64,000 nucleotides of DNA. It comes from a bacterium (lineage in GTDB: Bacteria; Auribacterota; Tritonobacteria; UBA1439). Position numbers and translations under genes: made by a program. Below are positions 825-41,175 of the stretch, piece after piece. Numbering within the stretch: position 1 is the first letter of the stretch; each line of letters begins with the position of its first letter. Under the pieces are notes generated by a model that saw only the letters and a list, made by a program, of their open reading frames with translations, made no database searches and was not told the DNA's origin. Where the stretch lies: contig JAQUPF010000003.1 of the NCBI GenBank assembly GCA_028716845.1, positions 62,001 through 126,000 on the forward strand. The letters run 5' to 3'.

Positions 825-1134
825 GAAGAAACAATTCACCACGGATGACCACGGATCAGCACTACAGCCGAAAGTTGAATGTTTAAAGTGAAAAGCGTCG
901 GAGTTTCAGCCGCGGATTGACGCGGATGAGCTTCTTGCGCCACGGAGGACACAGAGGACACGGAGAATGATGGGCCTGATCAGCACTCTATGGTCTCTGT
1001 GATCTCTGTGGCTCGATCAATCCGCGTTCATCCGCGGCAAAGCATATTCCTCTTCCTCGTCACTTTGAACTTTCGACTTTCCACTTTGAACTGTAGTTGC
1101 ATCCGTGAAGATCCGTGGTGAATTGGTTCGTTGT
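825..1134 (-). repeat. Composite intergenic repeat, copy A
   Basis: This is a non-coding stretch made of short near-tandem modules: CGCGGAT units, CACAGAGGA/CACGGAG units, ATCTCTGTG units, an ACTTTGAACTTTCGACTTT block and TGCATCCGTGAAGATCCGTGG. Bases 925 to about 1115 match copy B (from 2699) with only a few mismatches and in the same orientation. It fills most of the 490-base gap between pilM and the next gene. No protein-coding signal is seen in it. Confidence 0.85.
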
Positions 1135-1167
1135 GGCCGCGGCTGGTGGTGCATCGTTCAGGTGCAT

Positions 1168-2643
1168 CTACGGGAACGGGACCGAACGGACGCCGGCCAT
1201 ACCGACATCGCCCTCGCCTTCCTGCTCCATCTCCGGAAACACTCCACGCTTCAGGAAGACGACGGCCGTCCCCGACCGGAAGGCCTGGGACCACTCGGGA
1301 AGCCGGGCGATGACCGGCGCGACGGGGTTCTCCGGATGGAGGAGGATGATCTCGGTCGGGTAGCCGGCGATGAGGTTCCACCAGCGCTCCCCGGCGAAGA
1401 AGAACCTGAAATTGTCGTCGATGACGCGCTCCGGGTACACGGTGTCGTACCTGCCGTCGACCGAAACGAGGACGGTGCCGCCGAGGTGCCAGATGAGGTA
1501 TTCCCCCCAGTCGAACAGGACGGCGCAGTTCCCCGCGATCCCGCGCTCCCCCATCCAGCGGACGGCCGCGACCGGGTACCGGTCCGCGGGGACCACGAGG
1601 GAGAAGGCGGACCTTCCCCTCGCGAGCGGGATCGCCGCCGCGACAACCGCGGCGAGCAGCCACGCCGCCTTCCTGCCCGGTGCGGGCCGGGACGGCCCCT
1701 CCCCTCCCCTCCCGAGGCGCCCGAGCATCGCGGCGAGCGGCTCGGGCATGGCGAAGGACGCGGCGATCGCGAAGAACGGCATGTGCCTGTTGTGGGCGAA
1801 CGCGGCGGCGGCCGCCGCGGCGGCGATGCAGGTGAACCGCCATGGACCCGACGCGCGCGATGCGGCGACGGCGACGATGAAGAAGACGAGGAGGGCCTTG
1901 AAATCGACGAAATCAATGTCCCCCGGCCTGATCGGCGCCCATTCGGGGAGGTACGGTCTCCGGAGGGCGAGCGTCGACGCGAGGAACCGCCAGAGCCCGA
2001 TTCCGTACGGGTTGACGAGCGTGGCCGCCGCCGAGACGGCGAGGACGGCGACCGGGACGAGCGCCCCGCGCGCCTCCCCCCTCCTGAGCGCGTCCGCGCA
2101 CTCGAACGCGGCCCAGACGGCGAGGGCGGCGAGGCCCATCGGGAAGCCGCCGTGGAAGTTCGCCCACGCGAGGAAGACGGCGGGGACGAGGAGGAACCAC
2201 CCGGCCGGCTTCCGCGCGAGGGCGAGGAGGAGAAGGGTGAAGAACAGGTAGCTGAACATCTGCGGCCGGAAGCAGAGGCCGTAGGAGGCGACCGATATCG
2301 CGAGGCCGGCCGCGATGAGATTCCACGGCGGCGCGGCGCGGCGGATGAAATTGGAAATCATGATTCCCATGACGGCGAGGCCCGCGGCGAGGCGCAGGAT
2401 GACGATGCCGCCGCCGCCGAGATGCCGGAAGAGGACGGCGAAGGTCACCTCGGCGAGCCACTCGTGGTTGATCCAGGGGAGGCCGCGGGCGGTGTACGAG
2501 TACGGGTCGAACCGCGGGATCGCGCCATCGCGGAGGATGTCGAGGCCGAACCTGACGTGGCCCCAGAGGTCGGGATCGACCACGTTGTTCGTCAGGCAGA
2601 AGAGGGAGAAGGAGATGAGCAGGACGACGAACGGCAGCCGCAT
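1168..2643 (-). CDS. Polytopic membrane protein, GT-C-like
   Basis: This is a 491-residue, multi-spanning hydrophobic protein. Near the N-terminus, just after the first membrane segment, it carries DPDLWGHVRFG (residues 23-33) and then an I-P-R-F-D-P-Y-S-Y-T and W-I-N-H-E-W-L pattern. That arrangement is shared by a large group of uncharacterised bacterial membrane proteins resembling GT-C glycosyltransferases, in which acidic residues in the first extracytoplasmic loop are functional. The C-terminal part, with a VDGRYDTVYP segment, looks soluble. The ATG at 2643 is chosen because GGAGGG lies about 9 nt upstream; the frame stays open further upstream into repeat sequence. Lipid-linked sugar transfer is an inference; no acceptor can be named. 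Confidence 0.75.
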   Translation of the reverse strand: MRLPFVVLLISFSLFCLTNNVVDPDLWGHVRFGLDILRDGAIPRFDPYSYTARGLPWINHEWLAEVTFAVLFRHLGGGGIVILRLAAGLAVMGIMISNFIRRAAPPWNLIAAGLAISVASYGLCFRPQMFSYLFFTLLLLALARKPAGWFLLVPAVFLAWANFHGGFPMGLAALAVWAAFECADALRRGEARGALVPVAVLAVSAAATLVNPYGIGLWRFLASTLALRRPYLPEWAPIRPGDIDFVDFKALLVFFIVAVAASRASGPWRFTCIAAAAAAAAFAHNRHMPFFAIAASFAMPEPLAAMLGRLGRGGEGPSRPAPGRKAAWLLAAVVAAAIPLARGRSAFSLVVPADRYPVAAVRWMGERGIAGNCAVLFDWGEYLIWHLGGTVLVSVDGRYDTVYPERVIDDNFRFFFAGERWWNLIAGYPTEIILLHPENPVAPVIARLPEWSQAFRSGTAVVFLKRGVFPEMEQEGEGDVGMAGVRSVPFP

Positions 2644-2680
2644 CCCTGGTTGCCCTCCCATGAGGGGATCTTGAACCGAT

Positions 2681-2943
2681 TTACCGCTGATGCACGCGGA
2701 TGAGCTTCTTGCGCCACGGAGGACACAGAGGACACGGAGAATGACGGGCCTGATCAGCACTCTATGGTCTCTGTGATCTCTGTGGCTCGATCAATCCGCG
2801 TTCATCCGCGGCAAAGCATATTCCTCTTCCTCCCCACTTTGAACTTTCAACTTTCCACTTTGAACTGTAGTTGCATCCGTGGGGATCCGTAAGCATTCGT
2901 GGAAATCCGTGGCTATGAGTGCTTGTTTTCGGCTCATTCGCGG
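2681..2943 (-). repeat. Composite intergenic repeat, copy B
   Basis: This copy fills the gap between two divergent membrane-protein genes. About 180 bases are nearly identical to copy A, including the CACGGAGGACACAGAGGA and CTCTGTGATCTCTGTGG modules. It ends with degenerate GGATCCGTAAGCATTCGTGG units some 40 nt before the promoter of the next plus-strand gene. Confidence 0.85.
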
Positions 2944-2982
2944 CAAGGCAATACTCCGCCGCTGCGGATCGCGCCGGACTTG

Positions 2983-2991
2983 TGCTACAGT
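2983..2991 (+). promoter_or_regulatory. Extended -10 promoter element TGCTACAGT
   Basis: TG-C-TACAGT ends 16 nt before the ATG at 3008, which would leave a 5' leader of only about 9 nt. The same nine bases precede the permease gene at 41221. No convincing -35 box is visible. Confidence 0.5.
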
Positions 2992-3007
2992 ACGTTCCGG
3001 ACGCACC

Positions 3008-4825
3008 ATGATGGCCTCCCGGGCGCATTCCATCAAGGGGATTCTCGTCATCGCCGGCCTCGTCTTCACCGCCTTCTCCAACACGCTCGACAACGCCTTC
3101 GTCTGGGACGACGTCCGCATCGTCGCCTCTCACCCGGCGATCCGCCCCCCGCTCCGGCCGCGGGCGATCCTCTCCTCACGCTTCCTTTCGTTCCAGGAGG
3201 ATCCGCGCGCAGAAGACGAATTGCCGTACTGGCGGCCGGTCATCCTCCTCTCCTTCTTCACGGACGCGCGGGCGTGGGGAAGGAACCCGTTCGGCTTCCA
3301 CCTGACGAACGTCTTTATCCATTTCCTCAACGCATCGATCCTCTTCCTCCTCCTCTCGTCCCTCCCCTCGGCGCGGGCGGCTGCACTGCCCGCCTCCCTC
3401 CTCTTCGCCCTCCATCCCCTCCAGGCGAACGCCGTCTCGTACATCTCGGGAAGGACGGACCTGTTCGCGGCGTTCTTTCTCCTCGCCGCGCTCCTCCTTG
3501 CGTTCCGCTCCCGCTCGTTCGGCATCGGCCGGACCGCGATTGGGTCGGTTCTCGTCCTCCTCGCGCTCATGTCCAAGGAGTCCGCGATCGCCGCCCCCCT
3601 CCTCTTCCCCCTCCTCGGACGGCTCGCCGAACCCGGGCGCGGGCGGCGGGGCATCACGATGGCGCTCGCCTCGTGCGGCGCGCTTGCGGTCTATTTCGTC
3701 ATCCGCTCGCTCGCCGGCCTCCCCGCGGGCGGCTGGCTCGCCCGCGCGGGGGCCGTCTCCATCCCGCGCCTCCTCGCCGTCTCGAAAAGTCTCGTGTTAT
3801 ACGCGCGTCTGTTTCTCATTCCGGTCGGCCTTCGGATGGAGCGCTTCATCGGAATCCCGCCGCCCGGCGACCCGCTCGGCATTCTCGCGGCGGCAATTGT
3901 CCTTCTCGCCCTCGCAGCGGCGTTCCGACCGCTCCTCCGCCGCGGCGGCGGGAAGACCGCCCCCCTTTTCTTCTTCTTCTCGCTCGCCGCCCTCCTCCCG
4001 GCGGCCAACATCGTCCCTCTCTACCCGGCGATCGCCGGCCGCCAGATCTTCATCGGGGAGCAGTTCCTCTACCTCCCCCTCGCCGGTCTCGCGCCGCTCG
4101 CGGTCATTCTCTGGGGCGACATCGCCGAGCGGGCGGGGCGCCGGGCCGTCGCCGTCCGGGCGGCGGGCGTTGCCCTGCTCGCCATCCTCGGCCTCCTCGC
4201 GCACAACCATAACGAATACTGGCGCGACGAGGCGGCCTTCTACGGGAGAACGCTCGCGCGCTACCCGGGAAGCGTGCGGATGGCCACCAACCTCGGCCTC
4301 CTCCGCGCGCGGGAGGGGCGGTTCGAGGAGGGCCTCGCCCTCCTCTCCGGCGTCGCCGAGCACAATCCGCGCTCCGCGCGGGCGCACTACAACCTGGGTG
4401 TCGCGTATCTCGGGATGGGGATGACCGACCGAGCGGAGGAGGCACTCCGCGCCTGCCTCGACCTCGAACCCCGGCATCCCGGCGCGAACAGTGCGCTCGG
4501 CGCGCTTGAGATGTCGCGGGACAGGACGGATGAGGCGATCGGGCATTACCGGGCGGCGATCGCCGACTCCCCCCATTTCACGGAGGCGCGGCTGGGTCTC
4601 GCGACGGCGTATTTCAGGCAGGAGCGAGTGGACGAGGCGGCCGCCGCCCTCCGGGAGGCGCTCGCCCTCGATCCGCTCGCGATCGAGGTCCGATACTTCC
4701 TCGCGGTCATCCTCGAGCGACAGGGGCTGCTCGACGATGCGCGGATTGAATACCGCGAGATCCTTCGACGCTATCCGGACTGCGCGCCGGCGGAAGACAG
4801 ATTGCGAGGGATCGAAGGGGACTGA
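3008..4825 (+). CDS. TMTC-like membrane glycosyltransferase with C-terminal TPRs
   Basis: This is a 605-residue protein. About 400 residues form many membrane segments, followed by about five TPR units (residues 420-605; LGLLRAREGRFEEGLALL, YNLGVAYLGMGMTDRAEEAL and so on). Directly after the first membrane helix is N-T-L-D-N-A-F-V-W-D-D (residues 25-35). The acidic pair in this loop is characteristic of GT-C enzymes, and the overall plan (membrane domain plus C-terminal TPR) matches the TMTC/DUF1736 family of O-mannosyltransferases. The start at the MMASRAHS pair is chosen because sequence upstream is repeat-derived and contains the promoter. No strong Shine-Dalgarno is present, consistent with a very short leader. 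The substrate is unknown. Confidence 0.78.
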   Translation: MMASRAHSIKGILVIAGLVFTAFSNTLDNAFVWDDVRIVASHPAIRPPLRPRAILSSRFLSFQEDPRAEDELPYWRPVILLSFFTDARAWGRNPFGFHLTNVFIHFLNASILFLLLSSLPSARAAALPASLLFALHPLQANAVSYISGRTDLFAAFFLLAALLLAFRSRSFGIGRTAIGSVLVLLALMSKESAIAAPLLFPLLGRLAEPGRGRRGITMALASCGALAVYFVIRSLAGLPAGGWLARAGAVSIPRLLAVSKSLVLYARLFLIPVGLRMERFIGIPPPGDPLGILAAAIVLLALAAAFRPLLRRGGGKTAPLFFFFSLAALLPAANIVPLYPAIAGRQIFIGEQFLYLPLAGLAPLAVILWGDIAERAGRRAVAVRAAGVALLAILGLLAHNHNEYWRDEAAFYGRTLARYPGSVRMATNLGLLRAREGRFEEGLALLSGVAEHNPRSARAHYNLGVAYLGMGMTDRAEEALRACLDLEPRHPGANSALGALEMSRDRTDEAIGHYRAAIADSPHFTEARLGLATAYFRQERVDEAAAALREALALDPLAIEVRYFLAVILERQGLLDDARIEYREILRRYPDCAPAEDRLRGIEGD

Positions 4826-4855
4826 TGGACGGGAGGCGGCCGCGGCCGGGGAGCA

Positions 4856-5191
4856 TCAGACGGGTCGATCGTGGATGGTGCAGGTCACCGGCGATCCGAC
4901 CGTGTTGATGTTGCCGTACGTCCCGCCGCCGGGGCAGGTGTCGTCCACGGTCGCGCCCGTCAGATAGTCGTTCAAGACCGTGACGGGGCTGATCGTGTCG
5001 CCGGTCGTCAGCTTCGCCTCCAGCGCGTACTGGGCCTTCGCGGATTCGGTGTGGCGGATCCAGTTCCAGCAGGTGTTCCGCTGGGCGGTGGAGCGCGCCC
5101 TGATGAAGTTCGGCAAGGCGATCGTCGCCAGCAGTCCTATGATCGCGACGACGATCATGATCTCGACCAGCGTGAACCCTCGCCTTCTCAT
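4856..5191 (-). CDS. Type IV pilin-like protein, second of a tandem pair
   Basis: This 111-residue prepilin has a class III leader MRRRG and cleavage before F-T-L-V-E, followed by the hydrophobic helix IMIVVAIIGLLATIALPNF. The short C-terminal domain contains LEAKLTTGDTISP and a disulfide-type CPGGGTY motif with a later cysteine. It is clearly a paralogue of the upstream pilin, and the shared central block is conserved at DNA level too. ATGs at 5194 and 5191 are adjacent; 5191 aligns with the paralogue start. The ribosome site (GGGAAG) is much weaker than that of the first pilin, and a strong hairpin lies just upstream, so it is probably expressed at a lower level. It could be a minor pilin or pseudopilin. 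Confidence 0.88.
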   Translation of the reverse strand: MRRRGFTLVEIMIVVAIIGLLATIALPNFIRARSTAQRNTCWNWIRHTESAKAQYALEAKLTTGDTISPVTVLNDYLTGATVDDTCPGGGTYGNINTVGSPVTCTIHDRPV

Positions 5192-5206
5192 CATCTTCCC
5201 ATGATT

Positions 5207-5267
5207 GAAGGGGCGGCGCGTCGCCGCGCCGCCCCTTCGCCGTTCCGAACGCACCTCACGTGCGTTC
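5207..5267 (-). promoter_or_regulatory. Double hairpin between the two pilin genes
   Basis: There are two perfect inverted repeats. One is an 8-bp stem at 5247-5254/5260-5267. The other is a GC-rich 14-bp stem at 5207-5220/5225-5238 with a 4-nt loop. Neither is followed by a T-run on the minus strand. They lie between the stop of the first pilin and the ribosome site of the second, which suggests an RNA processing, stability or attenuation element. Confidence 0.65.
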
Positions 5268-5277
5268 AGTCAGATTA

Positions 5278-5613
5278 TCAGCTCGGCCTTCCGTGCGTGC
5301 CGCACTCGACCGGCGTGCCGACGTTGGGGATGTTCACGTAGGTTCCCCCGCCGGGGCACGTGTCCGTCACCGTCAGGTTCGTGAGGTAATCGTTCAGAAC
5401 GGTGCTCGGGCTGATCGTGTCACCCGTCGTCAGCTTCGCCTCCAGGGCGTACTGGTCCTTCGCGCCGTCGAACTGCCGGACGTTGTTCCAGCAGCTGTTC
5501 TGCTGCGTCGTGGCGCGAGCCCTGATGAAGTTCGGGATGGCGATGGCCGCCAGGAGCCCGATGATCGCGACGACGATCATGATCTCGACCAGCGTGAATC
5601 CGCGCTTCCTCAT
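5278..5613 (-). CDS. Type IV pilin, probable major pilin
   Basis: This 111-residue prepilin begins MRKRG, with the cleavage site before FTLVEIMIVVAIIGLLAAIA. The polymerising helix continues to PNFIRARATTQQNSC. The globular part has CPGGGTY and paired cysteines. It belongs to the short pilin/pseudopilin family common in Planctomycetes-Lentisphaerae-Omnitrophota type genomes. A near-perfect ribosome site (AAAGGAGGTGA) fixes the start. It has a long AT-rich upstream region with a palindrome, unlike the rest of this GC-rich window, which suggests strong or regulated expression. The partner pilM is about 4.6 kb to the left. Confidence 0.92.
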   Translation of the reverse strand: MRKRGFTLVEIMIVVAIIGLLAAIAIPNFIRARATTQQNSCWNNVRQFDGAKDQYALEAKLTTGDTISPSTVLNDYLTNLTVTDTCPGGGTYVNIPNVGTPVECGTHGRPS

Positions 5614-5643
5614 ATTTCACCTCCTTTCAGAAGCGTTTGCGAT

Positions 5644-5669
5644 ATGGAATAGAGCATGATCTATTCCAT
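5644..5669. promoter_or_regulatory. Perfect 10-bp palindrome upstream of the pilin
   Basis: ATGGAATAGA and TCTATTCCAT are exact reverse complements separated by 6 nt, 31 nt before the pilin start. The site could be a dimeric regulator operator or a hairpin in the 5' leader. Confidence 0.6.
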
Positions 5670-5830
5670 GTTTCCTATTATTTATTATTTCATATTCATT
5701 TCATTAAGAACATGTTATGGCATATGATAATGATTATTTTCTTTATTGCCCGGCACGAATATTCGCATATTTGCCAATCTGCCTCTAATCCTTTGCATTC
5801 CTGCAAAAACTAATGAAGGTTGCTTTGCCG
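5670..5830 (-). promoter_or_regulatory. AT-rich promoter/leader region of the pilin operon
   Basis: This stretch is strikingly AT-rich against a background of about 70% GC, with many TATT/AATAAT runs. Several possible -10 boxes exist and I cannot choose one. No open frame in it looks coding. Confidence 0.4.
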
Positions 5831-5864
5831 CAGAAGAAGACGAACCACCAGCCGCTGCCACAAC

Positions 5865-6165
5865 GAACCACTTCACCACGGATCTTCACGGATGCAACTA
5901 CAGTTCAAAGTGGAAAGTCGAAAGTTCAAAGCGGCGAGGAAGAGGAATATGCTTTGCCGCGGATGAACGCGGATTGATCGAGCCACAGAGATCACAGAGA
6001 CCATAGAGTGCCGATCAGGCCCGTCATTCTCCGTGTCCTCTGTGTCCTCCGTGGCGCAAGAAGCTCATCCGCGTCAATCCGCGGCAGAAACTTCTTCTTC
6101 CGGCTGCAATCAGATCCGTGAATATCCGTAATGATCAGTGGTTATCCGTGGTGAATTTGTTCTTC
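5865..6165 (+). repeat. Composite intergenic repeat, copy C
   Basis: It holds the same modules as copies A and B in opposite orientation: ACGGATCTTCACGGATGCAA, AGTTCAAAGTGGAAAGTCGA, CCGCGGATGAACGCGGATT, CACAGAGATCACAGAGACC and GTGTCCTCTGTGTCCTCCGT, then GTGAATATCCGTAATGATC. It lies between the divergent pilin and phosphorylase genes and ends about 20 nt before the phosphorylase promoter. Confidence 0.85.
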
Positions 6166-6183
6166 ATGGTTTGTTCTTCACGA

Positions 6184-6213
6184 TTGACGCTCGCCCGCGG
6201 CCGCCGCTATACT
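6184..6213 (+). promoter_or_regulatory. Promoter of the phosphorylase gene
   Basis: TTGACG (6184-6189) and TATACT (6208-6213) have an 18-nt spacer, 26 nt before the start codon. This is one of the best sigma-70 matches in the window. Confidence 0.7.
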
Positions 6214-6239
6214 GGCGGCACACAGGCCGGGAGGGAACC

Positions 6240-7547
6240 ATGCGACCGTACGAGATCATCCTGAAGAAGCGGGACGGCAAGCGCCTCGAGGACGCCGAGA
6301 TCGAGTTCATGATCCGCGAGTACACTGCCGGGAACATACCCGACTACCAGATGGCGGCGTTCCTGATGGCGATCTTCATCCGCGGCATGGCGTCGGACGA
6401 GACAACCGCCCTCACGATGGCGATGCTCCATTCCGGCGACGTCATCGACCTCTCCGGCATCGGCAGGAAGACCGTGGACAAACACTCCACCGGCGGTGTC
6501 GGCGACAAGACGAGCCTCGTCCTCGCCCCGATCGTCGCGGCGAGCGGCATCCCCGTCCCCATGATGAGCGGCCGCGGCCTCGGCCACAGCGGCGGGACGC
6601 TCGACAAGCTGGAATCAATCCCCGGCTTCCGCACCGACCTCACCGAGAAGGAGTTCGCGGACGCGGTCCGGGAGGTCGGCCTGGCGATCATCGGCCAGAC
6701 CCGATCCCTCGCCCCCGCCGACAAGAAGATCTACATGCTCCGGGACGTCACCGGCACCGTGGACAGCATCCCCCTCATCTGCGGCAGCATCATGAGCAAG
6801 AAGCTCGCCGCCGGCCCCGACGCCTTCGTCTTCGACATCAAGACCGGCGTCGGCGCCTTCATGAGCACGATGGAGCTCGCCGAGGAGCTCGCGCGCACGA
6901 TGAACGCCGTCGCGGCGAACGCCGGCAAGGACGTCGTGACGCTCATCAGCGACATGAACCAGCCGCTCGGCTCCGCCATCGGGAACGCCCTCGAGATCCG
7001 CGAGACCATCGCGGCCCTCGAGGGGAACATCCCGCCGGACCTGAAGGAGCTCGTCCTCTCCCTCGCCGCCTGGATGATGGTCTTCGGCGGCGCGGCGCGC
7101 ACGCCGGAGGAGGGCCGCGCCCTCGCCGAGAAGAACCTCACCGGCGGCAAGGGCCTCGAGGCGTTCCGGAAGATGGTGGCGCGCCAGGGGGGGAACCCGG
7201 AGGTCGTAGACGACCCCGACATCCTGCCGACGGCCGCCCACACCGAGGAGATCCGATCCCCGCGCGACGGATACGTCACCGCCGCCCACGCCCTCGAGAT
7301 CGGCCTCTGCAGCGTCGCCCTCGGGGCGGGCAGGGAGAACGTGGACTCGAAGATCGACATGGCCGTCGGCTTCCTCATGAACAAGAAGATCGGCGACGCC
7401 GTGAAGAAGGGCGAGAGCCTGCTGACCGTCCACTACAACGACCCGGCGAAGCTCGCGGCCGTGAAGGACCGGCTCCTCGAGGCGTTCACCGTGGGCGACC
7501 GGCCCGTGGGGCGGCCCCCGATGGTGCACAAGGTCATTAGGCCCTGA
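6240..7547 (+). CDS. pdp: Pyrimidine-nucleoside phosphorylase
   Basis: This 435-residue enzyme of the NP-II family splits thymidine/uridine with phosphate to give the base and (deoxy)ribose 1-phosphate in pyrimidine salvage. The N-terminus KKRDGKRLEDAEIEFMI, the phosphate-binding K-H-S-T-G-G-V-G-D-K and the family signature S-G-R-G-L-G-H-S-G-G-T-L-D-K-L-E-S are all present. Length and N-terminus resemble the Gram-positive Pdp branch more than E. coli DeoA. The start follows GGGAGGG, and a promoter and a strong terminator bracket it as a single-gene unit. Confidence 0.95.
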   Translation: MRPYEIILKKRDGKRLEDAEIEFMIREYTAGNIPDYQMAAFLMAIFIRGMASDETTALTMAMLHSGDVIDLSGIGRKTVDKHSTGGVGDKTSLVLAPIVAASGIPVPMMSGRGLGHSGGTLDKLESIPGFRTDLTEKEFADAVREVGLAIIGQTRSLAPADKKIYMLRDVTGTVDSIPLICGSIMSKKLAAGPDAFVFDIKTGVGAFMSTMELAEELARTMNAVAANAGKDVVTLISDMNQPLGSAIGNALEIRETIAALEGNIPPDLKELVLSLAAWMMVFGGAARTPEEGRALAEKNLTGGKGLEAFRKMVARQGGNPEVVDDPDILPTAAHTEEIRSPRDGYVTAAHALEIGLCSVALGAGRENVDSKIDMAVGFLMNKKIGDAVKKGESLLTVHYNDPAKLAAVKDRLLEAFTVGDRPVGRPPMVHKVIRP

Positions 7548-7599
7548 AAAGAATTGCACGCGACGAATGGCGGCTGTTCGTCGCGTACAATTCTTTTTT
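7547..7599 (+). terminator. Rho-independent terminator after pdp
   Basis: A long stem pairs AAAAGAATTG-CA-CGCGACGAA (7547-7567) with TTCGTCGCG-TA-CAATTCTTTT (7577-7597), followed by a T-run. It starts at the stop codon. Confidence 0.9.
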
Positions 7600-7654
7600 C
7601 CGCTTGCCCCCGCCGCCGATCCTCTTAAAGTGGGGAGGAGGGGCAGACGAACCA

Positions 7655-7912
7655 CGAGCCACGGATTTCCACGGATGCTTACGGATCCCCACGGATGCAA
7701 CTACAGTTCAAAGTGGAAAGTTGAAAGTTCAAAGCCCAGTCCCTTTCGGCTGCCTTCTCATCCGCAGTGATCTGCGTTCATCTGCGGCAAACCACCGTTC
7801 CTCTCCGCTGCCCTCTCATCCGCGGTAATCCGCGGCAATCCGCGGCAAAAACACCGTTCCTTTCGGCTGCCTTCTCATCCGCGATAATCCGCGTCAATCC
7901 GCGGTGAATTCT
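7655..7912 (+). repeat. Composite intergenic repeat, copy D
   Basis: It carries the ACGGATGCAACTACAGTTCA and AAAGTGGAAAGTTGAAAGTT modules. These are followed by three rounds of a TCGGCTGCCTTCTCATCCGC / GATAATCCGCGTCAATCCGC unit, an internal expansion not seen in the other copies. It fills the gap between pdp and the next plus-strand gene. Confidence 0.8.
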
Positions 7913-7958
7913 TTCTTTGTGTTCGGCTTTGGCCTTGAACTTCGGGCTGTCTTTGCGC

Positions 7959-7987
7959 TTGCATCCGGGCCCGCCCCGTGGTACCGT
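7959..7987 (+). promoter_or_regulatory. Putative promoter of the HhH protein gene
   Basis: TTGCAT (7959-7964) and TACCGT (7982-7987) have a 17-nt spacer, and TGG precedes the -10 box. The start codon is 32 nt downstream. Confidence 0.45.
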
Positions 7988-8018
7988 TCCCCACAGTGAG
8001 GGAAAGGAGGTGTGTCGC

Positions 8019-8345
8019 ATGAAGTGGCTGGCACCAGTGCTGGTGGTTGCGCTGGCCCTTCCCCTGCTGGTCGCGTCCGACCTCTCCGCCGCGTGCGCAG
8101 AGGGTCAGATCGACATCAACACGGCGACGGAGGCTCAGCTCAGGACCGTGAAGGGGATCGGGCCGAAGAGGGCCGAGGCGATCATCGAGGGCCGTCCGTA
8201 CTCGTCGGTCGACGACCTGCGGAAGGTCAAGGGCATCGGCGAGAAGACGCTCGAATCAATGCGTCCCAGTCTCTGCGTCGGCAAGGCCGCTCCCGCGGCG
8301 AAGGCAGTCGAGGCGGATCTGCCCCCGGCGGAAGAGGCGTACTGA
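8019..8345 (+). CDS. Small secreted helix-hairpin-helix protein (ComEA-like domain)
   Basis: This is a 108-residue protein with a signal peptide (about residues 1-25: basic MKW, hydrophobic core, A-S-D-L-S-A-A) followed by one ComEA-type double HhH DNA-binding unit. The motifs are IDINTATEAQLRTVKGIGPK and VDDLRKVKGIGEKTLESM. The tail is short and Ala/Pro-rich. Export plus a DNA-binding fold suggests periplasmic DNA capture, but it lacks the SLBB domain and membrane anchor of classical ComEA, which is present elsewhere in this window (43332-43937). The start is fixed by GGAAAGGAGGTG. The gene stands alone between a promoter and a terminator. Confidence 0.82.
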   Translation: MKWLAPVLVVALALPLLVASDLSAACAEGQIDINTATEAQLRTVKGIGPKRAEAIIEGRPYSSVDDLRKVKGIGEKTLESMRPSLCVGKAAPAAKAVEADLPPAEEAY

Positions 8346-8362
8346 CAATCAGACCGTTCTCC

Positions 8363-8396
8363 GGAGGGGAACCCGCCCGGGTTCCCCTCCGTCTTT
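8363..8396 (+). terminator. Rho-independent terminator after the HhH gene
   Basis: GGAGGGGAACCC (8363-8374) pairs perfectly with GGGTTCCCCTCC (8379-8390) over a 4-nt loop, followed by GTCTTTT. Confidence 0.88.
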
Positions 8397-8419
8397 TCCA
8401 CGCCCGAGGGGGGTGAACG

Positions 8420-9637
8420 CTGAGCTCGCGGAAATCGTCCATCCCCGCCTTTCTCGGCGACCATCTCCGCGCCAGGACCTCTCCCCCGTTCTCCGTCCGC
8501 GGCAATCTCGCCGGCGCGCTGCGGCCCCCCGACCGCCTGGATGATGTCGCCCGCGCCGTCGTGGCCTGCGGGCGCGCCGGCGGCACGGTCTCCCTCTCGA
8601 TCGGCCGCGGCCCCGACGCGGTCGCCGCGGCGGCCATCCTCCTCTCCGTCTGCCTGAAGGCCGGGGCCCGCCGCCCGCCGCGCGCCGGAGGCGACCTGTT
8701 CGACGCGCCCGCGCCCGCCGCGGGAATCCGCCTCGCCGTCGCGCCCGACCGCCTCGACATCGACGGCATCCCCGTCGCGCGGCGCGCGCCCCTCTCCCTC
8801 TCGTCGCTCGCGCTCATGGCGGCCGACGCCGTCTTCGTCGCGGGCGCGCTCGATTATCCCGCCGACTTCGTCGCGTTCGATTTCGAAACGACGGGCCGGA
8901 ATCCGGTCGAGGACGAGATCACAGAGATCGGCGCGGTGAAGGTGGAGGCGGGCCGCGAGACCGCCGTCTTCTCCTCGTTCGTGAAGCCGCGTCGGCCCAT
9001 TCCGCCCGAGGTGGTGGGGATCACCGGCATCACCGACGAGATGGTCGCCGGGGCGCCCCCCCCGGCGGAGGCGCTCGCGCGGTTCCTCGACTTCGCCGGC
9101 GCGCTCCCCCTCGTCGCGCACAACACCCCGTTCGACATCGGGTTCCTCTCGCACCACGCCCGGACGTCGCTCGGGCGCGAGGTCAGGCCCGACACGGAGG
9201 ACACCCTCCTCATGGCGCGCTGGCTCTTCCCCGAAGCCCCCGGCCACCGGCTCGGGGACGTGGCGGCGATCGCGGGCGTGGCGCTGCCCGGCTGGCACCG
9301 GGCCGAGAACGACGCGCGCGCCGTGGCGGGGATATACCTCCGGCTCATCGCGCGCGACAGGGAGGAGCGGCGCGACCTGCGCCTCAAGGAATACTGCGAC
9401 CTCGCCGCGCTGGGGACGATCGCCTCCGGCCTGCCGCTCGAGGGGGAGAACGGCCTCGTCGTGAAGCGCGGCCTGGGGATGATGCTCAGGCGGTTCGGCC
9501 CGCTGCCGCCGTCGCCCCCGCCGGCCCGCGGCGCGGAACCGCCCCCGGAGCGGACGGCGGAGAGGCTTCTCTCGCCGGACGACGGGGCGCGCCGCGAGGC
9601 GGCGCTCATCCTCCTCGCCGGTCTCGGGGGAAGTTGA
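8420..9637 (+). CDS. DEDDh 3'-5' exonuclease, DNA polymerase III epsilon-like
   Basis: The exonuclease domain shows all three motifs: ExoI FDFETTG, ExoII HNTPFDIGFL and ExoIII HRAENDARAVAG with the DEDDh histidine (about residues 153, 233 and 293). The domain resembles DnaQ/PolC proofreading nucleases. It is preceded by about 140 residues of unknown function and followed by a Pro-rich linker. The start is uncertain. The first GTG is at 8561 without a ribosome site, but the frame and its GC-rich third positions extend back to a CTG at 8420 that follows GAGGGGGGTG. I take the CTG tentatively. The 3' end is 6 nt from the converging dehydratase gene. Confidence 0.75.
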   Translation: MSSRKSSIPAFLGDHLRARTSPPFSVRGNLAGALRPPDRLDDVARAVVACGRAGGTVSLSIGRGPDAVAAAAILLSVCLKAGARRPPRAGGDLFDAPAPAAGIRLAVAPDRLDIDGIPVARRAPLSLSSLALMAADAVFVAGALDYPADFVAFDFETTGRNPVEDEITEIGAVKVEAGRETAVFSSFVKPRRPIPPEVVGITGITDEMVAGAPPPAEALARFLDFAGALPLVAHNTPFDIGFLSHHARTSLGREVRPDTEDTLLMARWLFPEAPGHRLGDVAAIAGVALPGWHRAENDARAVAGIYLRLIARDREERRDLRLKEYCDLAALGTIASGLPLEGENGLVVKRGLGMMLRRFGPLPPSPPPARGAEPPPERTAERLLSPDDGARREAALILLAGLGGS

Positions 9638-9643
9638 CCGTCG

Positions 9644-11005: not shown

Positions 11006-11006
11006 A

Positions 11007-28404: not shown

Positions 28405-28590
28405 GCGGATTCAATGAACCGCTTCACCGCGGATCTCCACGGATGCAACTACAGTTCAAAGTGAAAAGTCGAAAGTTCAAAGCGGCGATAATCCGCGAAG
28501 ATCTGCGGTAAAACCCCTTTCTTGTTCAACTTTGGGCTTTCGACTTCCTGATCCAGGGCAATCCGTAATAATCCGTGTCAATCCGTGGCT
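28405..28590 (+). repeat. Composite intergenic repeat, copy E
   Basis: It has the same orientation as copies C and D: CACCGCGGATCTCCACGGAT, ACTACAGTTCAAAGTGAAAA, GATAATCCGCGAAGATCTGC, then AATCCGTAATAATCCGTGTC units. It lies between divergent recG and rpmB and ends about 30 nt before the rpmB promoter. Confidence 0.8.
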
Positions 28591-32672: not shown

Positions 32673-32690
32673 GGGGGTCCGGCCGTAGCG

Positions 32691-34064
32691 CTACGCGCCC
32701 GGGTAGTATTTCTCGATGTACGCCTCTTTGATCCGCTTCAGCTCGCCCTTCGGCAGCATCCCGAGGAGCCGCCAGCCCAGGTCGAGGGCCGCCGCGATCT
32801 CGCGGTTCTCCCCCTCCCCCTGCGCGATGAACTCCCGCTCGAACCGCCCGGAGAACTGCACGTAGAGGCGGTCCGTCTCGGAGAGGGCCGACTCCCCGAG
32901 GACGACGGCGATCTCCTTCGCCGACCGGCCGCGCGCGTAGGCCGCGTAGAGCTGGTTCATGACGCCGGCGTGGTCCTCGCGGGTCTTCCCCTCCCCCGTC
33001 CCCCGGTCCTTCAGCCGGGACAGCGAGGGGAGGACGTCCACCGGCGGGTAGATCCCCTCGTTGAAGAGCGGGCGGGAGAGGAGGATCTGCCCCTCGGTGA
33101 TGTAGCCGGTCAGGTCGGGGATCGGGTGGGTCTTGTCGTCCTCCGGCATGGAGAGGATCGGCATCTGGGTGATGGAGCCGCCCCTTCCCTTGATCCTGCC
33201 GGCCCGCTCGTAGATCATCGAGAGGTCCGTGTAGAGGTAGCCGGGATAGCCGCGCCGCGAGGGGACCTCCTTCCGGGCGGCGGAGATCTCCCGGAGCGCC
33301 TCGCAGTAGTTCGTCATGTCGGTGAGGATGACGAGGATGTGCATGCCGAGCTCGTAGGCGAGGTACTCGGCCGCCGTCAGGGCGAGCTTCGGGACGGCGA
33401 TGCGCTCGATCGGCGGGTCGTTCGCGAGGTTGATGAACAGGACCGCCCGCTCGAGCGCCCCGGTCTTCTCGAACTCCCGCATGAAGAAATCGGACTCCTC
33501 GAAGGTGATCCCCATCGCCGCGAAGACGACGGCGAACTGCTCGCCGGTCTTGAGCACCCGGGCCTGGCGCGCGATCTGCGCGGCGAGCCGCGGGTGGGGC
33601 AGGCCGGCGGCGGAGAAGATCGGGAGCTTCTGGCCGCGGACGAGCGTGTTGAGGACGTCGATCGTGGAGATCCCCGTCTGGATGAACTCGGTCGGGTAGT
33701 CGCGCGCCTCGGGGTTGATCGGGACGCCGTTCACGTCCGCGTACCGCTCGGGGATGACGGGCGGCCCGCCGTCGATCGTCCGCCCGAAGCCGTCGAACAT
33801 CCGACCGACGATGTCCGGCGAGAGGCCGATCTGGAGGCCCTTGCCGAGGAACTTCACCCGCGCGGCGCCCGGGGTCAGGCCGCTCGTCCCCTCGAAGACC
33901 TGCACGAGCGCCTTGTCCTCGTGCACCTCGAGGACCTGCCCGTGCCGCACGCTCCCGTCCGGCATCAGGATCTCGGCGATCTCGGCGTAGGCGACGCCGC
34001 GCACGTCCTCGACGAGCATCAGCGGGCCGACGATGTTCTCGACCGTCAGGTATTCCTTCCTCAT
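32691..34064 (-). CDS. atpB: V-type ATPase subunit B (non-catalytic)
   Basis: This 457-residue regulatory subunit begins [20 protein letters not shown] and includes [20 protein letters not shown] where a P-loop would be in subunit A. The SMIYERAGR and E-G-Q-I-L-L-S-R motifs are present. Its ATG overlaps the subunit A stop (ATGA). Confidence 0.96.
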
Positions 34065-35839: not shown

Positions 35840-36219
35840 CCCCCGCTCTCCTCGCCTTCCCCGTGCACGATCTCCTCCGGGATCTCCCCTGCCGGCGCCC
35901 GGGAGAGGAGGTCGACGCCGACCGACCGGATGATGATCCCCCGCATCCGCTCGAGCCCCCCGCTCCCGCCGCCGATCCGCGTCGGGACGCGCATGACCGC
36001 GTGCCTCCCCCGCTCTTCCATCTCTGCGACCGCCTCCGGCGCGAGGGCCGCCGCCGCCTCGGTGACGAGGACGAGCGATCCCCTCCCCCGCCCGGCGATC
36101 TCCCGGAGCGCCGCCTCGACGGCCGCCGCGTCGTCCGCCGGGTGCAGGAGCGCCCCCGCGGCGCGGAACGGCGGGATCACCCGCGAGCCGCCGACGACGT
36201 GGATGTTTCCGCTATGCAT
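35836..36219 (-). CDS. atpF: V-type ATPase subunit F
   Basis: This 127-residue protein has a Rossmann-like N-terminal half ([19 protein letters not shown]) and an R-V-P-T-R-I segment near the middle of the fold. It is slightly longer than usual with an acidic tail. Position between C and A matches ntpG of the Enterococcus operon. It binds the D axle. The assignment rests partly on gene order. Confidence 0.8.
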
Positions 36220-37186
36220 CCCGCAGCCTCGCCGCCGCCTGCCGCCGGTCGATCGGCGTGAGGACCGCCGCCAGGCAGAGCCGCATGTTGAACGCCTCCA
36301 CGTACAGCCGCCGCAGGTACCAGAGCACGCGGGCCGGGCCGTACACCTCGCGGGCGCCGCGGGCGGCGATCCGGGTGAGCCGGTCGTCCGCCGCCTTCCC
36401 GAACCGGCGGTCGAACTCGTCCTCGGCCAGGGCGAGGTCGCCGACCCCGGCGAGCGCGAGCACGGCGGACGCCGGCGGCGGAGATTCGAGCGCCTCGAGC
36501 GCGCCCGGCGGGGGGGCCGGGAGCGGCGGCCGGAAGAAGAAGGCGCGGAGCGTCGCCGGCCCGATGCCGCCCGCGGGCGCCCGCCGGATGACCTTCGCCG
36601 CGGCGAGGGAGGCCATCGCCTCCGCGTACGGCCGGAGCGCGGGGCGGCGGCCGGCGATCCGGAGCGCCTCGATCAGGTACGCCGCGTCCACCCAGAGCGA
36701 GAGGGCCCGCACCGGCGCCTCCTCGAAGAGGGCCCGCGCGTCCGCCGGGACGCGGAAGCCGCGGAGCCACGGGAAGCCCGCCTCGAGCCGCTCCGCCCAC
36801 CGGCGGACCTCGTCGGCGCCCGCCCGGGCGATCTCCTGACGGACGAGCAGCTCGTGCACTCGGCGGATCCCGATCCCCTTCAGGAAGATCTCCGCCGGGC
36901 CGTCCTGCGGGGAGAGGTCGCCGATCTCCCCGATCCGCTCCTCCAGGTCCGACTCGATGATCCGGTCATGGTCGCCGAGCGCCCCGGGGTGCGGGAAGAG
37001 GGGGGCGTGGCGCGACTTCGCGACCTGGGCGTGCGACTCGGCGGGGGTCCGGGCCCTGAGGAGGTCCGTGAAGAACGACGACTCCAGGAGCTCCGCCTCG
37101 AGCGCGGCGCACCGGCCGGAGACGAAGTTCCAGTCCTCGGCGACTTCAGCGAGGGCCGGCATCGGAAACATCGGAAAGGTCTCCAA
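36212..37186 (-). CDS. atpC: V-type ATPase subunit C
   Basis: This 324-residue mainly helical protein lies between E and F in the operon, the place of NtpC. It would form the socket joining rotor axle D to the proteolipid ring. Sequence motifs are weak: I see F-L-K-G-I-G-I-R-R-V-H-E-L-L and Y-V-E-A-F-N-M-R-L typical of vacuolar d/C-type subunits. It overlaps F by 8 nt and E by 41 nt. Confidence 0.78.
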   Translation of the reverse strand: METFPMFPMPALAEVAEDWNFVSGRCAALEAELLESSFFTDLLRARTPAESHAQVAKSRHAPLFPHPGALGDHDRIIESDLEERIGEIGDLSPQDGPAEIFLKGIGIRRVHELLVRQEIARAGADEVRRWAERLEAGFPWLRGFRVPADARALFEEAPVRALSLWVDAAYLIEALRIAGRRPALRPYAEAMASLAAAKVIRRAPAGGIGPATLRAFFFRPPLPAPPPGALEALESPPPASAVLALAGVGDLALAEDEFDRRFGKAADDRLTRIAARGAREVYGPARVLWYLRRLYVEAFNMRLCLAAVLTPIDRRQAAARLRDA

Positions 37187-37769
37187 AGAGTTCCCGGTCG
37201 AGGGCGGGGATGCGCTCCCGCTTCCGCTCCTCGAGCCATCCGTCGAGCGACCGCTCGACGCCGAAGCGCGCCGTGCGGAAGAGGAAGCCGCGCTCGAACG
37301 GCGCCCGCTCCGCCGAGACCGACAACCGCCGGCCGGCCGGCCGCTCGCGGTTCAAATCACCGGCGATCTCCGCGACGACCTCGGCGTCCTCCGCGCCGGG
37401 GACGATCTCCCCCCCCTCGGGGGCGTCGATCCCCTCGATCCACCGCCGGAGCATCGCGCCGTACCGCTCGGGAGAGGTGCGGAGCAGTTCCTCCCGCGCG
37501 CCCTTCATGACCTCGTCGAGGACGCGGTTCCGGGCGGCGAGGAGGGCCATCCGCGCCTCCCGCCGCGCGCGGGCGACCTCCCGCATCGCCTCCCCTTCGA
37601 TCGCCGCCCGCTCTTCCTCCAGCCGGACGCGCGCCCGCTCCTCGTCCTCCCGGCGCCCCTCCGCAAGGAGGCGGTCGAGTTGCGCGCGCGCCTCCGCCGC
37701 GATGCGGGCGGCCTCCGCCTCGGCCTCGGCGAGAACGGCGGCCCGGACGGGGTCGAGCGCTCCCGTCAC
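37146..37769 (-). CDS. atpE: V-type ATPase subunit E (peripheral stalk)
   Basis: This 207-residue protein has an Ala/Glu/Arg-rich N-terminal helix (about 100 residues) and a mixed C-terminal domain with EELLRTSPERYGAMLRRWIE. It starts with GTG at 37769, which overlaps the proteolipid stop (GTGA). With the coiled-coil subunit at 40365-40688 it forms the peripheral stalk. Confidence 0.85.
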   Translation of the reverse strand: MTGALDPVRAAVLAEAEAEAARIAAEARAQLDRLLAEGRREDEERARVRLEEERAAIEGEAMREVARARREARMALLAARNRVLDEVMKGAREELLRTSPERYGAMLRRWIEGIDAPEGGEIVPGAEDAEVVAEIAGDLNRERPAGRRLSVSAERAPFERGFLFRTARFGVERSLDGWLEERKRERIPALDRELFGDLSDVSDAGPR

Positions 37770-38296
37770 GGCGCCACCGCCGTCCCGAGCGCGAGGTTCG
37801 GGGCAGTGATCCAGATCGTCATGAGGATCGCGGCCAGGAGCGCCACGACCGCGTACGTCTCCACGAGCGCCGGCAGGAGGATCGCCTTCCCGGCCTCGTC
37901 CGGCTTCCGCGCCGTGAGGTTGATCGCCGCGGCGGAGGTCTCCCCCTGGAAGATGGCGCTCCAGAGGAAGACGACGCCCGCCCCGATGCCGATGAGGAAC
38001 TCGCCGAGGCCGACGAGCGGCGACACCGTGACCGTCCCGGCGATGATCCCGCAGCGGAGGGCGATGATGACCGCCGAGATGAAGCCGTAGAACCCCTGCG
38101 TTCCGGGGAGGGCGATGAGGACGAGGAGCTTGCCGAACAGCTCCGGCGTCTCCGACAGGACGCCCGCCCCCTGGGCCGCCGATATCCTGATCCCCCGCGC
38201 GCTCCCCACGCCGCCGAGCATCACCGCGGCCATGGCGCCCGCGACCGCCCAGCCGAGCCCCGTCTCCAGGAAGTAGTACCGCAGGAACGCATCCAT
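37766..38296 (-). CDS. atpK: V-type ATPase proteolipid subunit K, probable Na+ type
   Basis: This 176-residue, four-helix duplicated proteolipid forms the membrane ring. L63, T66, Q67 (L-P-G-T-Q-G), Q117 (I-F-Q-G-E-T) and E146 (L-V-E-T-Y) match by position and context the Na+ ligands of Enterococcus hirae NtpK (L61, T64, Q65, Q110, E139). Only the second hairpin keeps the carboxylate, as in V-type pumps. Sodium coupling is therefore predicted, but not proven. Confidence 0.93.
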   Translation of the reverse strand: MDAFLRYYFLETGLGWAVAGAMAAVMLGGVGSARGIRISAAQGAGVLSETPELFGKLLVLIALPGTQGFYGFISAVIIALRCGIIAGTVTVSPLVGLGEFLIGIGAGVVFLWSAIFQGETSAAAINLTARKPDEAGKAILLPALVETYAVVALLAAILMTIWITAPNLALGTAVAP

Positions 38297-38350
38297 CTCG
38301 CCATCCCCCCTTCGTCTCGGCGCGCGGCCGCGCGGGCCGCGCGATCGTTC

Positions 38351-40375
38351 CTAGCCCCGCACCTCCAGCCCCCCGCTCGCGAAGCCGTGCGGGGAGAACC
38401 ATTTTCCCCCGCCCTCGTAGAAGCGCCCGAAGAACTCCAGCAGGATCAGCCGCGCCGAGTGCACGAACCCCGAGAGCGCGCTGATGATGAAATTGAACAG
38501 GTGGCCGGGGATCGCCACGGCGAGGAAGAGGACCGTCGAGGCCGCCGGGAGCGCCGCGAGCGGCGAGGCCGCGAGCTTCGCGATGATGTTGAACGACATC
38601 CCGACGACGTAGGTCGTCAGGCCGAGCGCGAGGAGGCGCGAGTAGGAGATCACGTCCCCCGCGAACGAGGTCGTCCCGTACGTCCCCATGACGCCGTAGA
38701 GGCTCACGAGCCCCGCGATCGCCCGCCCGGCGGCCGTCGGCTGGTCGCGCCCCTGCGTGCAGACGAGGCCGGCGGCGCCCGCCGCGAGGCAGGCGAGGGC
38801 GGCCGCCCGCGCGACCCCGCCGACGCCGGCGAGGAGCAGGAACGCCGTGGCGAGGAGGCCGCCCAGGTAGACGAGCCAGAAGACGCCGTCGTAGACGGCG
38901 ACCCGCCAGTTCCGCTGCCGGGCCCCCTGGTACACCTTGAGGACGATGCCGTAGAACTGCGCGAAGATCCCGATCGCGAGGGCGGCCATGAGCGCCACGA
39001 CCGGCTTCTCGAGCATGTCGATGACGGCCAGCCGGCGGGCGACGGCGAGGAGGGGATTCCCCGGGCCGAGGTACTCCTCCCGGTACATGTCCGCGGCCCA
39101 GCTGCCGGTGAGGGCCCCGAAGAGGACGGTGCTCGCCCCGCAGTAGATGAAGAGGCGGAAGAAGTCGGCGAGGCCGGGCTGCCGCCGGTAGCGGCGCATG
39201 AGGAGCCACGAGAGGAGGGCGAGGAGCGCCCCGTAGAAGACGTCGGCGAAGCAGATGCCGAAGAAGGCGAGGAAGACGGCGAAGAGGAACGGCGTCGGGT
39301 CCAGGGCGAAATAGTTCGGCAGGCCGAACATGTTGATGAGGAGCTGCGCCGGCGCGAGCCAGCGCGGCAGCCGGATGGAGACGGGCACCTCCTCGCCGGG
39401 CACCGGGTCCGCGGCGACGACGCTCGTCCCCGGCATCTCCTCACCGACGGCGTCGAGGAGGCGCGGGAGGTCCCGCGCGCGGGCGTAGCCGGAGGCCAGG
39501 CCGATCCGCGCCGAGCAGAGCATCGCCTGCGCGCCGGCGGCCCGCCGCTCCTCGCTCTCCCAGTGTCCGTGGACGCAGGCGAGCCGGCGGACGGCGCCGG
39601 GCGGCAGGAGGGCGCGGAGCTCCGACTCGAGGCGGGCGATGCGCGCGCGGCTCTCCCCCTCCTCCCGCGCGATTTCGGCCAGCCGCTCCGCGACGGTCCC
39701 GTCGATCTCCGGCAGCTCCGCGACGCGGAAGCCGTGGGCGCGGAGGATGTCGAGGCACCGCTCCCCGTCCGCCTTCCGGCCGGCGACGAGGAGGGCCCTC
39801 CCCTCGCCGTCCCGGCGGACGGTCTCCCATGCGAGGAGGCCGGCCGCCTCCGCGTCGCCGGCCAGGTGCTCCGCCGCCGCGTGGCTTCCCTCGGCGACGA
39901 TGAGGAACAACCTGGAGAGCGCCCGCGCGGGGCCGAGGGGGAGGGCGAGGAACGAGAAGCGCCCGAGGGACTCCCGCTCCCGGCGCAGGTTGTCGAGCCG
40001 CGCCGCCTCCCCCTTCCGCTCCCTCGTCCGCTCCGCGACGGCGGCGTGGAGGGCGTCGAGATCGACGGCCGCGAGCGCCTCCTCGATCTCGGCGGCCCGC
40101 ACGACGGTCTTCACCGGGAACAGGCTGTCGAGAAAGCCCGGACGGTCGCCGTGGAGCGCCCGGGCCTCGGCGAGGAGCTCGGCGGCCTTCGCCTTCCGCC
40201 CGGCGGCCGCCGCCTCGTCGATGCAGATCGGGCTCGCGCAGGCGGCGAGCGAGGGGAACTCGCCCTCGATCCCCCGCAGCTGGACTGCCCCCCGCCGGTA
40301 CAGCCACTCCTCGATCTGGTCGCCCCGGCTCGACGGGAAGAGGAAGGTGAGCCGCTTCATCCGCTCAATCGCCAC
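38351..40375 (-). CDS. atpI: V-type ATPase subunit I (a subunit)
   Basis: This 674-residue stator has a soluble coiled-coil N-terminal half and seven to eight membrane segments from about residue 355. E-F-F-G-R-F-Y-E-G-G-G-K near the end is the family signature. I choose GTG at 40375 (protein start M-A-I-E-R-M-K-R-L-T) because AGGAGGG lies 6 nt upstream and V-type I subunits usually start this way; the ATG at 40360 is too far from that site. Confidence 0.93.
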   Translation of the reverse strand: MAIERMKRLTFLFPSSRGDQIEEWLYRRGAVQLRGIEGEFPSLAACASPICIDEAAAAGRKAKAAELLAEARALHGDRPGFLDSLFPVKTVVRAAEIEEALAAVDLDALHAAVAERTRERKGEAARLDNLRRERESLGRFSFLALPLGPARALSRLFLIVAEGSHAAAEHLAGDAEAAGLLAWETVRRDGEGRALLVAGRKADGERCLDILRAHGFRVAELPEIDGTVAERLAEIAREEGESRARIARLESELRALLPPGAVRRLACVHGHWESEERRAAGAQAMLCSARIGLASGYARARDLPRLLDAVGEEMPGTSVVAADPVPGEEVPVSIRLPRWLAPAQLLINMFGLPNYFALDPTPFLFAVFLAFFGICFADVFYGALLALLSWLLMRRYRRQPGLADFFRLFIYCGASTVLFGALTGSWAADMYREEYLGPGNPLLAVARRLAVIDMLEKPVVALMAALAIGIFAQFYGIVLKVYQGARQRNWRVAVYDGVFWLVYLGGLLATAFLLLAGVGGVARAAALACLAAGAAGLVCTQGRDQPTAAGRAIAGLVSLYGVMGTYGTTSFAGDVISYSRLLALGLTTYVVGMSFNIIAKLAASPLAALPAASTVLFLAVAIPGHLFNFIISALSGFVHSARLILLEFFGRFYEGGGKWFSPHGFASGGLEVRG

Positions 40376-40688
40376 GGTCCCCCTCCTCGAGCAGGTCGCG
40401 GGCGATGGCGCCGGCGCAGCGCCCGGCCCGCTCCTCCCGCGCGCGCTCGATCGCCGCGAGCCCCCGCTCCCGCTCCCGGCCGATGGAGGCGATCTCCTCC
40501 CGCGCGCGCGCGGCACGCTCGTCGCGCAGCCGCGCCGCCGCGGCGGCGGCCGCCGCGGCGATCTCCTCGCGGGCGGCCTTCCGGCGCTCGTCGATGGTGC
40601 CGAGGAGGATCCGGGCCTCGCGGCGGGCGCGGTCGATGATCGCCTCCGCCTCGCGCTCGATCCCGATCACCCTCTCCTCGAGTCCCAT
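40365..40688 (-). CDS. V-type ATPase peripheral-stalk coiled coil (subunit G/H, NtpF-like)
   Basis: This is a 107-residue, almost entirely helical protein rich in Ala, Arg and Glu (R-A-R-R-E-A-R, K-A-A-R-E-E-I-A). It is the first gene of the operon, the position of ntpF. It overlaps subunit I by 11 nt. The partner is subunit E. Start at MGLEERVIGIE after GGGGACAGGG. Confidence 0.78.
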   Translation of the reverse strand: MGLEERVIGIEREAEAIIDRARREARILLGTIDERRKAAREEIAAAAAAAAARLRDERAARAREEIASIGRERERGLAAIERAREERAGRCAGAIARDLLEEGDRGD

Positions 40689-40711
40689 CCCTGTCCCCGC
40701 ACCATGCACCA

Positions 40712-41175
40712 CTCGCCACGGATCCGCACGGACAGCCGCTCGGAACGTATCGCTCTTTGCCACAGAGATCACAGAGAAGGATCCAGACAGCGGTCTCTCC
40801 GTGCCCTCTGTGTTCTCTGTGGCTTCCTATGAACTTCGAGCGTTCAGCCTATCGCTGTCGCTGCATCCGTGCTGATCCGCGCCCATCCGTCCGAATCCGT
40901 GGCGGATTCTTTCGTATACCGCCGCGCGGCTTTGTATATTGCCACAGGCGCCCCTCCCCGACAACGCATTTCCCAGCGGCAATACAGGAAACAACAGCCG
41001 CGGATCTTCACGGATCATGACGGATATCCACGGATCTTGACGGACATCGGATTCGCTGGGATTGTGGCGAAAAAGAATTTGCTCTTCACTCCAATCCCCG
41101 GCGGGAGCACGGTTCCCTTTCGCTTCCGGCTGCAGTTGGATCCGCGATAATCCGCGCCAATCCGCGGTGGATTGG
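40712..41175 (+). repeat. Composite intergenic repeat, copy F
   Basis: It is the longest and most degenerate copy, between the divergent V-ATPase and permease genes. It has CACAGAGATCACAGAGA, CTCTGTGTTCTCTGTGG, then after about 70 unique bases GATCTTCACGGATCATGACG, GATATCCACGGATCTTGACG and GATAATCCGCGCCAATCCGC units. It ends 20 nt before the -10 element at 41195. Confidence 0.75.

Follow-up and report, generated by a model that had tools for sequence, protein, structure and literature searches.

In REP/BIME-RAYT systems, one gene lies between inverted palindromic repeats and many gene-less hairpins are found elsewhere in the same genome. The 23S rRNA IVS of Coxiella burnetii, which is 428 nt long, has terminal inverted repeats and a single open reading frame for a four-helix-bundle protein (S23p/IVP), and rRNA IVS have long been suspected of being transposition remnants or mobile elements (PMC4990558). 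The STRR of cyanobacteria are intergenic 7-bp repeats that can form hairpins; the published account gives their function as unknown (PMC2670836).

The DNA considered here is a window of 64 kb, the whole stretch that was analysed, corresponding to bases 62001-126000 of contig C3 in a genome of 2.68 Mb and 36 contigs (window GC content 70%). It holds six non-coding composite copies built from shared modules, which are probably gene-less (MITE-like) derivatives, nested in one another, of small inverted-arm elements that carry either a GxxExxY gene or a four-helix gene. The reading of the copies as inverted-repeat elements is well supported; they belong with inverted-repeat elements and MITEs, and there is a real chance that they form a new class. 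As in MITEs, the copies are short, gene-less and multi-copy with inverted ends, the ends are common to gene-bearing partners in the same genome (GxxExxY genes on contigs C5 and C4 and a four-helix gene on C1), and gene-less forms arise by internal deletion of gene-bearing copies, the C4 copy being an intermediate. Unlike MITEs, they have no known transposase partner, their arms are unit arrays, nesting is deep and a target duplication was not found. The layout is also that of REP/RAYT without the RAYT, in that a gene lies between inverted repeats and gene-less hairpins are many. However, the gene is GxxExxY or four-helix rather than Y1, the Y1 genes checked have no module arms, and the arms are nested arrays of 7-10-nt units. 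The four-helix elements share their protein family (PF05635), size and inverted ends with the rRNA IVS; the PF05635 frame sits between inverted repeats in sampled relatives, and its counterpart in the own genome has a clear arm on one side. The IVS are located inside rRNA genes, whereas the elements here are intergenic and multi-copy (no rRNA match was obtained within the 64-kb window), show arms made of heptamer arrays, occur also as gene-less derivatives, and include a second type that carries GxxExxY. Finally, cyanobacterial four-helix arms resemble STRR heptamers, a lead that comes from comparing period and hairpin style only.

A preliminary description of the window proposed a repeat family of six copies that share modules, and this family is real. 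Each of the six copies lies at the stated coordinates (Table 1), the five module types are all present, and the tandem module pair CRCRGATNNNCRCRGAT has 277 + 289 = 566 matches in the 2.68-Mb genome. This is far above chance, because the reversed pattern gives 0 + 0. The sixth copy (40712-41175) needs amending, as it consists of two adjacent elements at about 40716-40904 and 40999-41166. Copies 1 and 3 match at 97% over 233 bp in opposite orientation, copies 2 and 3 at 96% over 207 bp, likewise inverted, and the right end of copy 6b resembles an end of the gene-bearing C5 element at 37 of 44 positions. Within copy 4, positions 7742-7904 comprise three tandem 59-nt units that end in ATCCGCG arrays (TRF score 233), part of an element having been amplified in place.

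Table 1. Composite copies in the window and the modules that they contain (window coordinates)
Feature	Position	Strand	Description
Composite copy 1	825-1134	-	Nested hairpins; convergent gap; fold z -11.6
Copy 1, outermost arms (CACGGAT)	840-856 / 1101-1117		AAAGT/ACTTT arms next inward
Copy 1, inner arms (CGCGGAT)	911-927 / 1020-1036
Copy 1, innermost arms (CACGGAG-CACAGAG)	941-963 / 995-1010
Composite copy 2	2681-2943	-	Inner hairpins as copy 1, outer left arm missing; divergent gap
Copy 2, CACGGAG / CTCTGTG	2715-2737 / 2769-2784
Copy 2, ATCCGCG	2794-2810
Copy 2, ACTTT	2836-2866
Copy 2, ATCCGTG array	2873-2910
Composite copy 3	5865-6165	+	Divergent gap; genome has other copies without its inner hairpins
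Copy 3, CACGGAT	5877-5893 / 6115-6151
Copy 3, AAAGTGG array	~5905-5930
Copy 3, CGCGGAT	5958-5974 / 6067-6083
Copy 3, CACAGAG	5984-5999 / ~6030-6053
Composite copy 4	7655-7912	+	CACGGAT array 7660-7698, AAAGTGG array, then 59-nt tandem units; codirectional gap
Composite copy 5	28405-28590	+	CGCGGAT/CACGGAT 28428-28444; AAAGT array; ATCCGCG 28491-28507; ATCCGTG array 28561-28587; divergent gap
Copy 6a	40716-40904	+	CACGGAT outer arms ~40718 / 40865-40904 enclosing CACAGAG hairpin 40761-40776 / 40796-40822; divergent gap
Copy 6b	40999-41166	+	CGCGGAT/CACGGAT array 40999-41044; ATCCGCG array 41140-41166

The modules are inverted pairs, that is, a unit array (CACGGATNNNCACGGAT), a loop and then the reverse complement. 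On contigs C1 and C3 (643 kb), adjacent clusters of units separated by less than 200 bp run from forward to reverse in 37 cases vs 5 from reverse to forward, and the six window copies fold better than dinucleotide shuffles, with z between -2.6 and -11.6. It was therefore wrong to describe the copies as having no terminal inverted repeats. Gain, loss and inversion of modules between copies, as first described, are indeed seen, but the rule that governs them, an inversion symmetry produced by nests of hairpins, had been missed. Loops often enclose another, different hairpin, so that copy 1 reads as CACAGAG in CGCGGAT in AAAGT in CACGGAT. When 44 composite elements are laid out, this Russian-doll order recurs with differing partners. 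The best reading is that the elements and their MITE-like derivatives insert into one another.

GxxExxY genes are often annotated beside such repeats, and the own genome has two of them. The first, on C5, is intact; its CACGGAT arms lie 92 bp before and ~55 bp after the matched core. Because the arm score of this copy, 33, falls short of the 99th percentile for the other genes of this repeat-rich genome (39.7), the case rests on anatomy and not on score. The second, on C4, retains only the first 58 profile positions between two intact CACAGAG arms and represents a stage of internal deletion on the way from a gene-bearing to a gene-less form. A four-helix-bundle (23S rRNA IVP) gene at C1:4460 has a TTCAAAG/AAAGT arm that is clear on one side only. 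Through these three copies, the CACGGAT, CACAGAG and AAAGT modules of the window each have a gene-bearing counterpart, and a GxxExxY gene of the relative G004 lies between CGCGGAT arms. Gene-bearing and gene-less forms share arm types within one genome, in which the gene-less hairpins far outnumber the genes. No forward-to-reverse pair enclosing another gene across a gap of 200-2000 bp was found in 643 kb of the own genome. The preliminary description had named transposase-linked ends as evidence against its reading; in effect a comparable link, to mobile genes, exists, as GxxExxY genes and four-helix genes are both bordered by arms built in the same way.

The association extends well beyond this genome. 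Among 80 GxxExxY loci from many bacterial phyla, 79 were testable against 2397 control intervals from the same loci, and inverted upstream and downstream arms exceed the 99th percentile of the control in 56 of the 79 (1% expected), leaving ~30% of the genes without significant arms. In relatives, 11 of 12 GxxExxY loci have arms that score above every shuffle. The GxxExxY arms can be summarised as approximately ACCNCNRAG followed by one to three further CNCNRAG units (for example CACGGAT, CGCGGAT, CACAGAG, CACGAAG and CGCCAAG), and are more alike within a locus (median 41) than between loci (18). Distant GxxExxY matches also occur on plasmids, eight in number. Inverted arms likewise accompany four-helix genes (TIGR02436/PF05635), in 20/23 cases in the home phylum, 17/28 in other phyla and 17/22 in a cyanobacterial order, with heptamers such as TTCAAAG, GGATTAA and GGGGTGT or, in the cyanobacterial order, GTGGGGT and GAGTGAGG. 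Where arms are clearly periodic, the period is 8-9 nt for GxxExxY (32/36) and 7 nt for four-helix genes (34/39), the 10-nt CACGGAT type of the window being the rarer GxxExxY form in this sample. The occurrence of the same design in many phyla suggests a widespread, little-described kind of bacterial mobile element. In many genomes there are also weak TIGR02436 matches, covering profile positions ~4-69 in longer frames (~200-320 aa), possibly a distant four-helix domain protein.

A finer comparison is provided by 30 genomes from the genus of Thioalkalivibrio sp. ALJ16, for which raw counts are given and kinship is ignored. Seven of them have GxxExxY between the same two genes, and in eight the site is empty, with 15-92 bp between the genes. 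The seven gene carriers contain 18-156 CACRGAG unit pairs vs 0-9 in the other 23, kinship again being ignored. Two further genomes have GxxExxY with CACGGAT arms; CACGGAT repeats were predicted for them beforehand, and the prediction was borne out, with 34-35 pairs vs 0-1 in the seven. Mostly, then, the arm type of GxxExxY predicts the type of gene-less repeat that a genome carries. There are three exceptions, the small genomes G089, G091 and G093, which have 9-57 CACGGAT pairs and in which no GxxExxY gene was detected; incomplete assembly or gene loss may be involved. At the shared site (L242-L247) arm type corresponds only coarsely to repeat type, because GxxExxY arms vary by species (CACAGAG, CACGAAG and others), a variation that could mean either that this one site has undergone replacement more than once or that arms there turn over quickly.

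The GxxExxY protein belongs to family PF13366 (PDDEXK_3; E 1.7e-40), and its PD-(D/E)XK residues D79, E89 and K91 are invariant in 57 sequences. A structural model (pLDDT 94.7) finds its best match in SSO0001, which we take to be a Cas4-type nuclease (Z 9.3, 4.4 Å over 100 residues); the archaeal Holliday-junction resolvase Hjc (Z 6.7) is not above background, and a sequence search of the PDB gave no clear relative. From its D...ExK motif and modelled fold, GxxExxY is predicted to be a PD-(D/E)XK nuclease, for which hairpin or cruciform arms are a plausible substrate. GxxExxY is almost absent from the literature searched, in which subscription journals were few and preprints none; that literature yielded no biochemical data on nuclease activity, no paper tying GxxExxY to these repeats and no match to the module strings.

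A full element spans ~450-600 bp, with one gene, coding for GxxExxY or for a four-helix-bundle/23S rRNA IVP protein, between arms of 2-4 near-tandem units that are mostly 8-10 nt long in the GxxExxY type and 7 nt in the four-helix type. The nuclease would recognise the hairpin or cruciform arms and then cut, and the element itself, or in trans a copy without the gene, would get to a new site. Arrays of the same units may be preferred or tolerated landing sites, which would give rise to nesting, and intergenic placement would reflect selection against gene disruption. Action in trans fits the presence of one gene per genome alongside dozens of gene-less hairpins. More tentatively, and with somewhat less than even confidence, GxxExxY may be the mobility enzyme of a new and very widespread class of mobile element, in which a single PD-(D/E)XK nuclease, arms of 8-10-nt unit arrays, gene-less hairpins moved in trans and a preference for the element's own unit arrays are combined; a parallel four-helix (Avd-like) class with heptamer arms, including the rRNA IVS, may explain the cyanobacterial STRR. 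If this is true, families annotated just as 'GxxExxY protein' and 'four helix bundle protein' would gain a likely role and be linked to intergenic repeats that are abundant and unexplained in many phyla, the rRNA IVS and perhaps STRR would come into one picture, and the arms of one gene would predict the repeats that a genome carries. At ~120-140 aa, GxxExxY would be a very small candidate DNA-mobility enzyme.

The hairpins might instead be moved in trans by some other enzyme, such as a REP-associated Y1/RAYT transposase or a reverse transcriptase, with GxxExxY and the four-helix protein as passengers. The REP/RAYT-like layout, the presence of Y1 transposases in 20/20 genomes tested, the resemblance of the four-helix family to Avd, an accessory protein of diversity-generating reverse transcriptases (PMC10053308), and the use of two different gene families in one element design all lend this some weight. 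Nevertheless, it appears unlikely, as Y1 genes occur in repeat-rich and repeat-poor species alike (20 genomes), no module arms lie near the four Y1 genes checked in the own genome and two relatives, and arm type tracks the GxxExxY gene in the genus comparison. A Y1/RAYT gene as the flanked partner was rejected on the same absence of modules.

Cross-comparison of 98 elements gave 71 intervals that are filled in one copy and empty in another with both flanks aligned. Whole forward-to-reverse hairpins account for 27 of the 71 and the other 44 contain no whole hairpin (partial arms), many pairs differing by half arms; 98 other intergenic segments gave 0 such pairs, a weak control as those segments are non-repeated. 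Such paralogous comparisons show that whole hairpins have been inserted or lost, with inexact junctions; neither a clean target-site duplication nor an exact junction could be read from the filled/empty pairs. Hairpins are found inside hairpins, with insert-free copies elsewhere, and presence and absence are seen at one orthologous site. In the genus comparison, two genomes with flanks 91-96% identical differ by a 172-bp hairpin-containing stretch within a unit array. If the arrays grew and spread through replication slippage and through gene conversion among hairpins, without an enzyme of their own, the near-tandem units, the 59-nt triplication in copy 4 and the 44 intervals lacking a whole hairpin could be accounted for. 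This explanation is highly improbable, since slippage accounts neither for similar arms at dozens of unlinked sites, nor for the presence or absence of whole hairpins, nor for the recurrence across phyla of two particular gene families, each with its own arm period.

Placement was assessed on 643 kb (C1 and C3) with a simple in-house gene caller. Intergenic DNA makes up ~12% of bases and contains 60 of 68 elements; random placement would put ~60 in coding sequence. Counts by gap type track intergenic bp (divergent 18, expected 15.6; codirectional 40, expected 37.1; convergent 2, expected 7.4), so there is no promoter preference and only a mild shortage in convergent gaps. A preference for promoters or divergent gaps was accordingly rejected. 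Four of the six window copies do lie in divergent gaps by gene calls, as originally noted; copy 1 follows a gene at 5-787 in a convergent gap, and copy 4 is between codirectional genes. The claim that all copies end 20-60 nt from a promoter is unsupported, as a sigma-70 scan of 1-9000, which is weak evidence at 70% GC, gave one gene-start site beside a copy (6184-6213) and a second site on the minus strand (793-765). Genes neighbouring the composite copies are ordinary-looking and mostly unrelated chromosomal genes. Of the two readings first offered, that of a repeat which spread passively and is tolerated in such gaps alone comes close, and the findings lend no weight to a regulatory or nucleoid-binding role. 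Selection of the copies at promoters as regulators, terminators or nucleoid-binding sites, with the GxxExxY arms as a by-product, would suit the almost purely intergenic placement, strong folding and scarcity in convergent gaps but is very unlikely, given divergent gaps that are not enriched by bp, arbitrary nesting and partial copies, the lack of any Rfam match to a known RNA family in the 64-kb window and the absence of the repeats from related species.

The own four-helix gene and the window copies are located between protein or tRNA genes. Read by eye, the four-helix gene at C1:4460 adjoins a tRNA-like sequence, and a four-helix gene fragment on contig C7 (~7400-8050, in G000:C7:5001-25000) apparently lies between two tRNA-like sequences.
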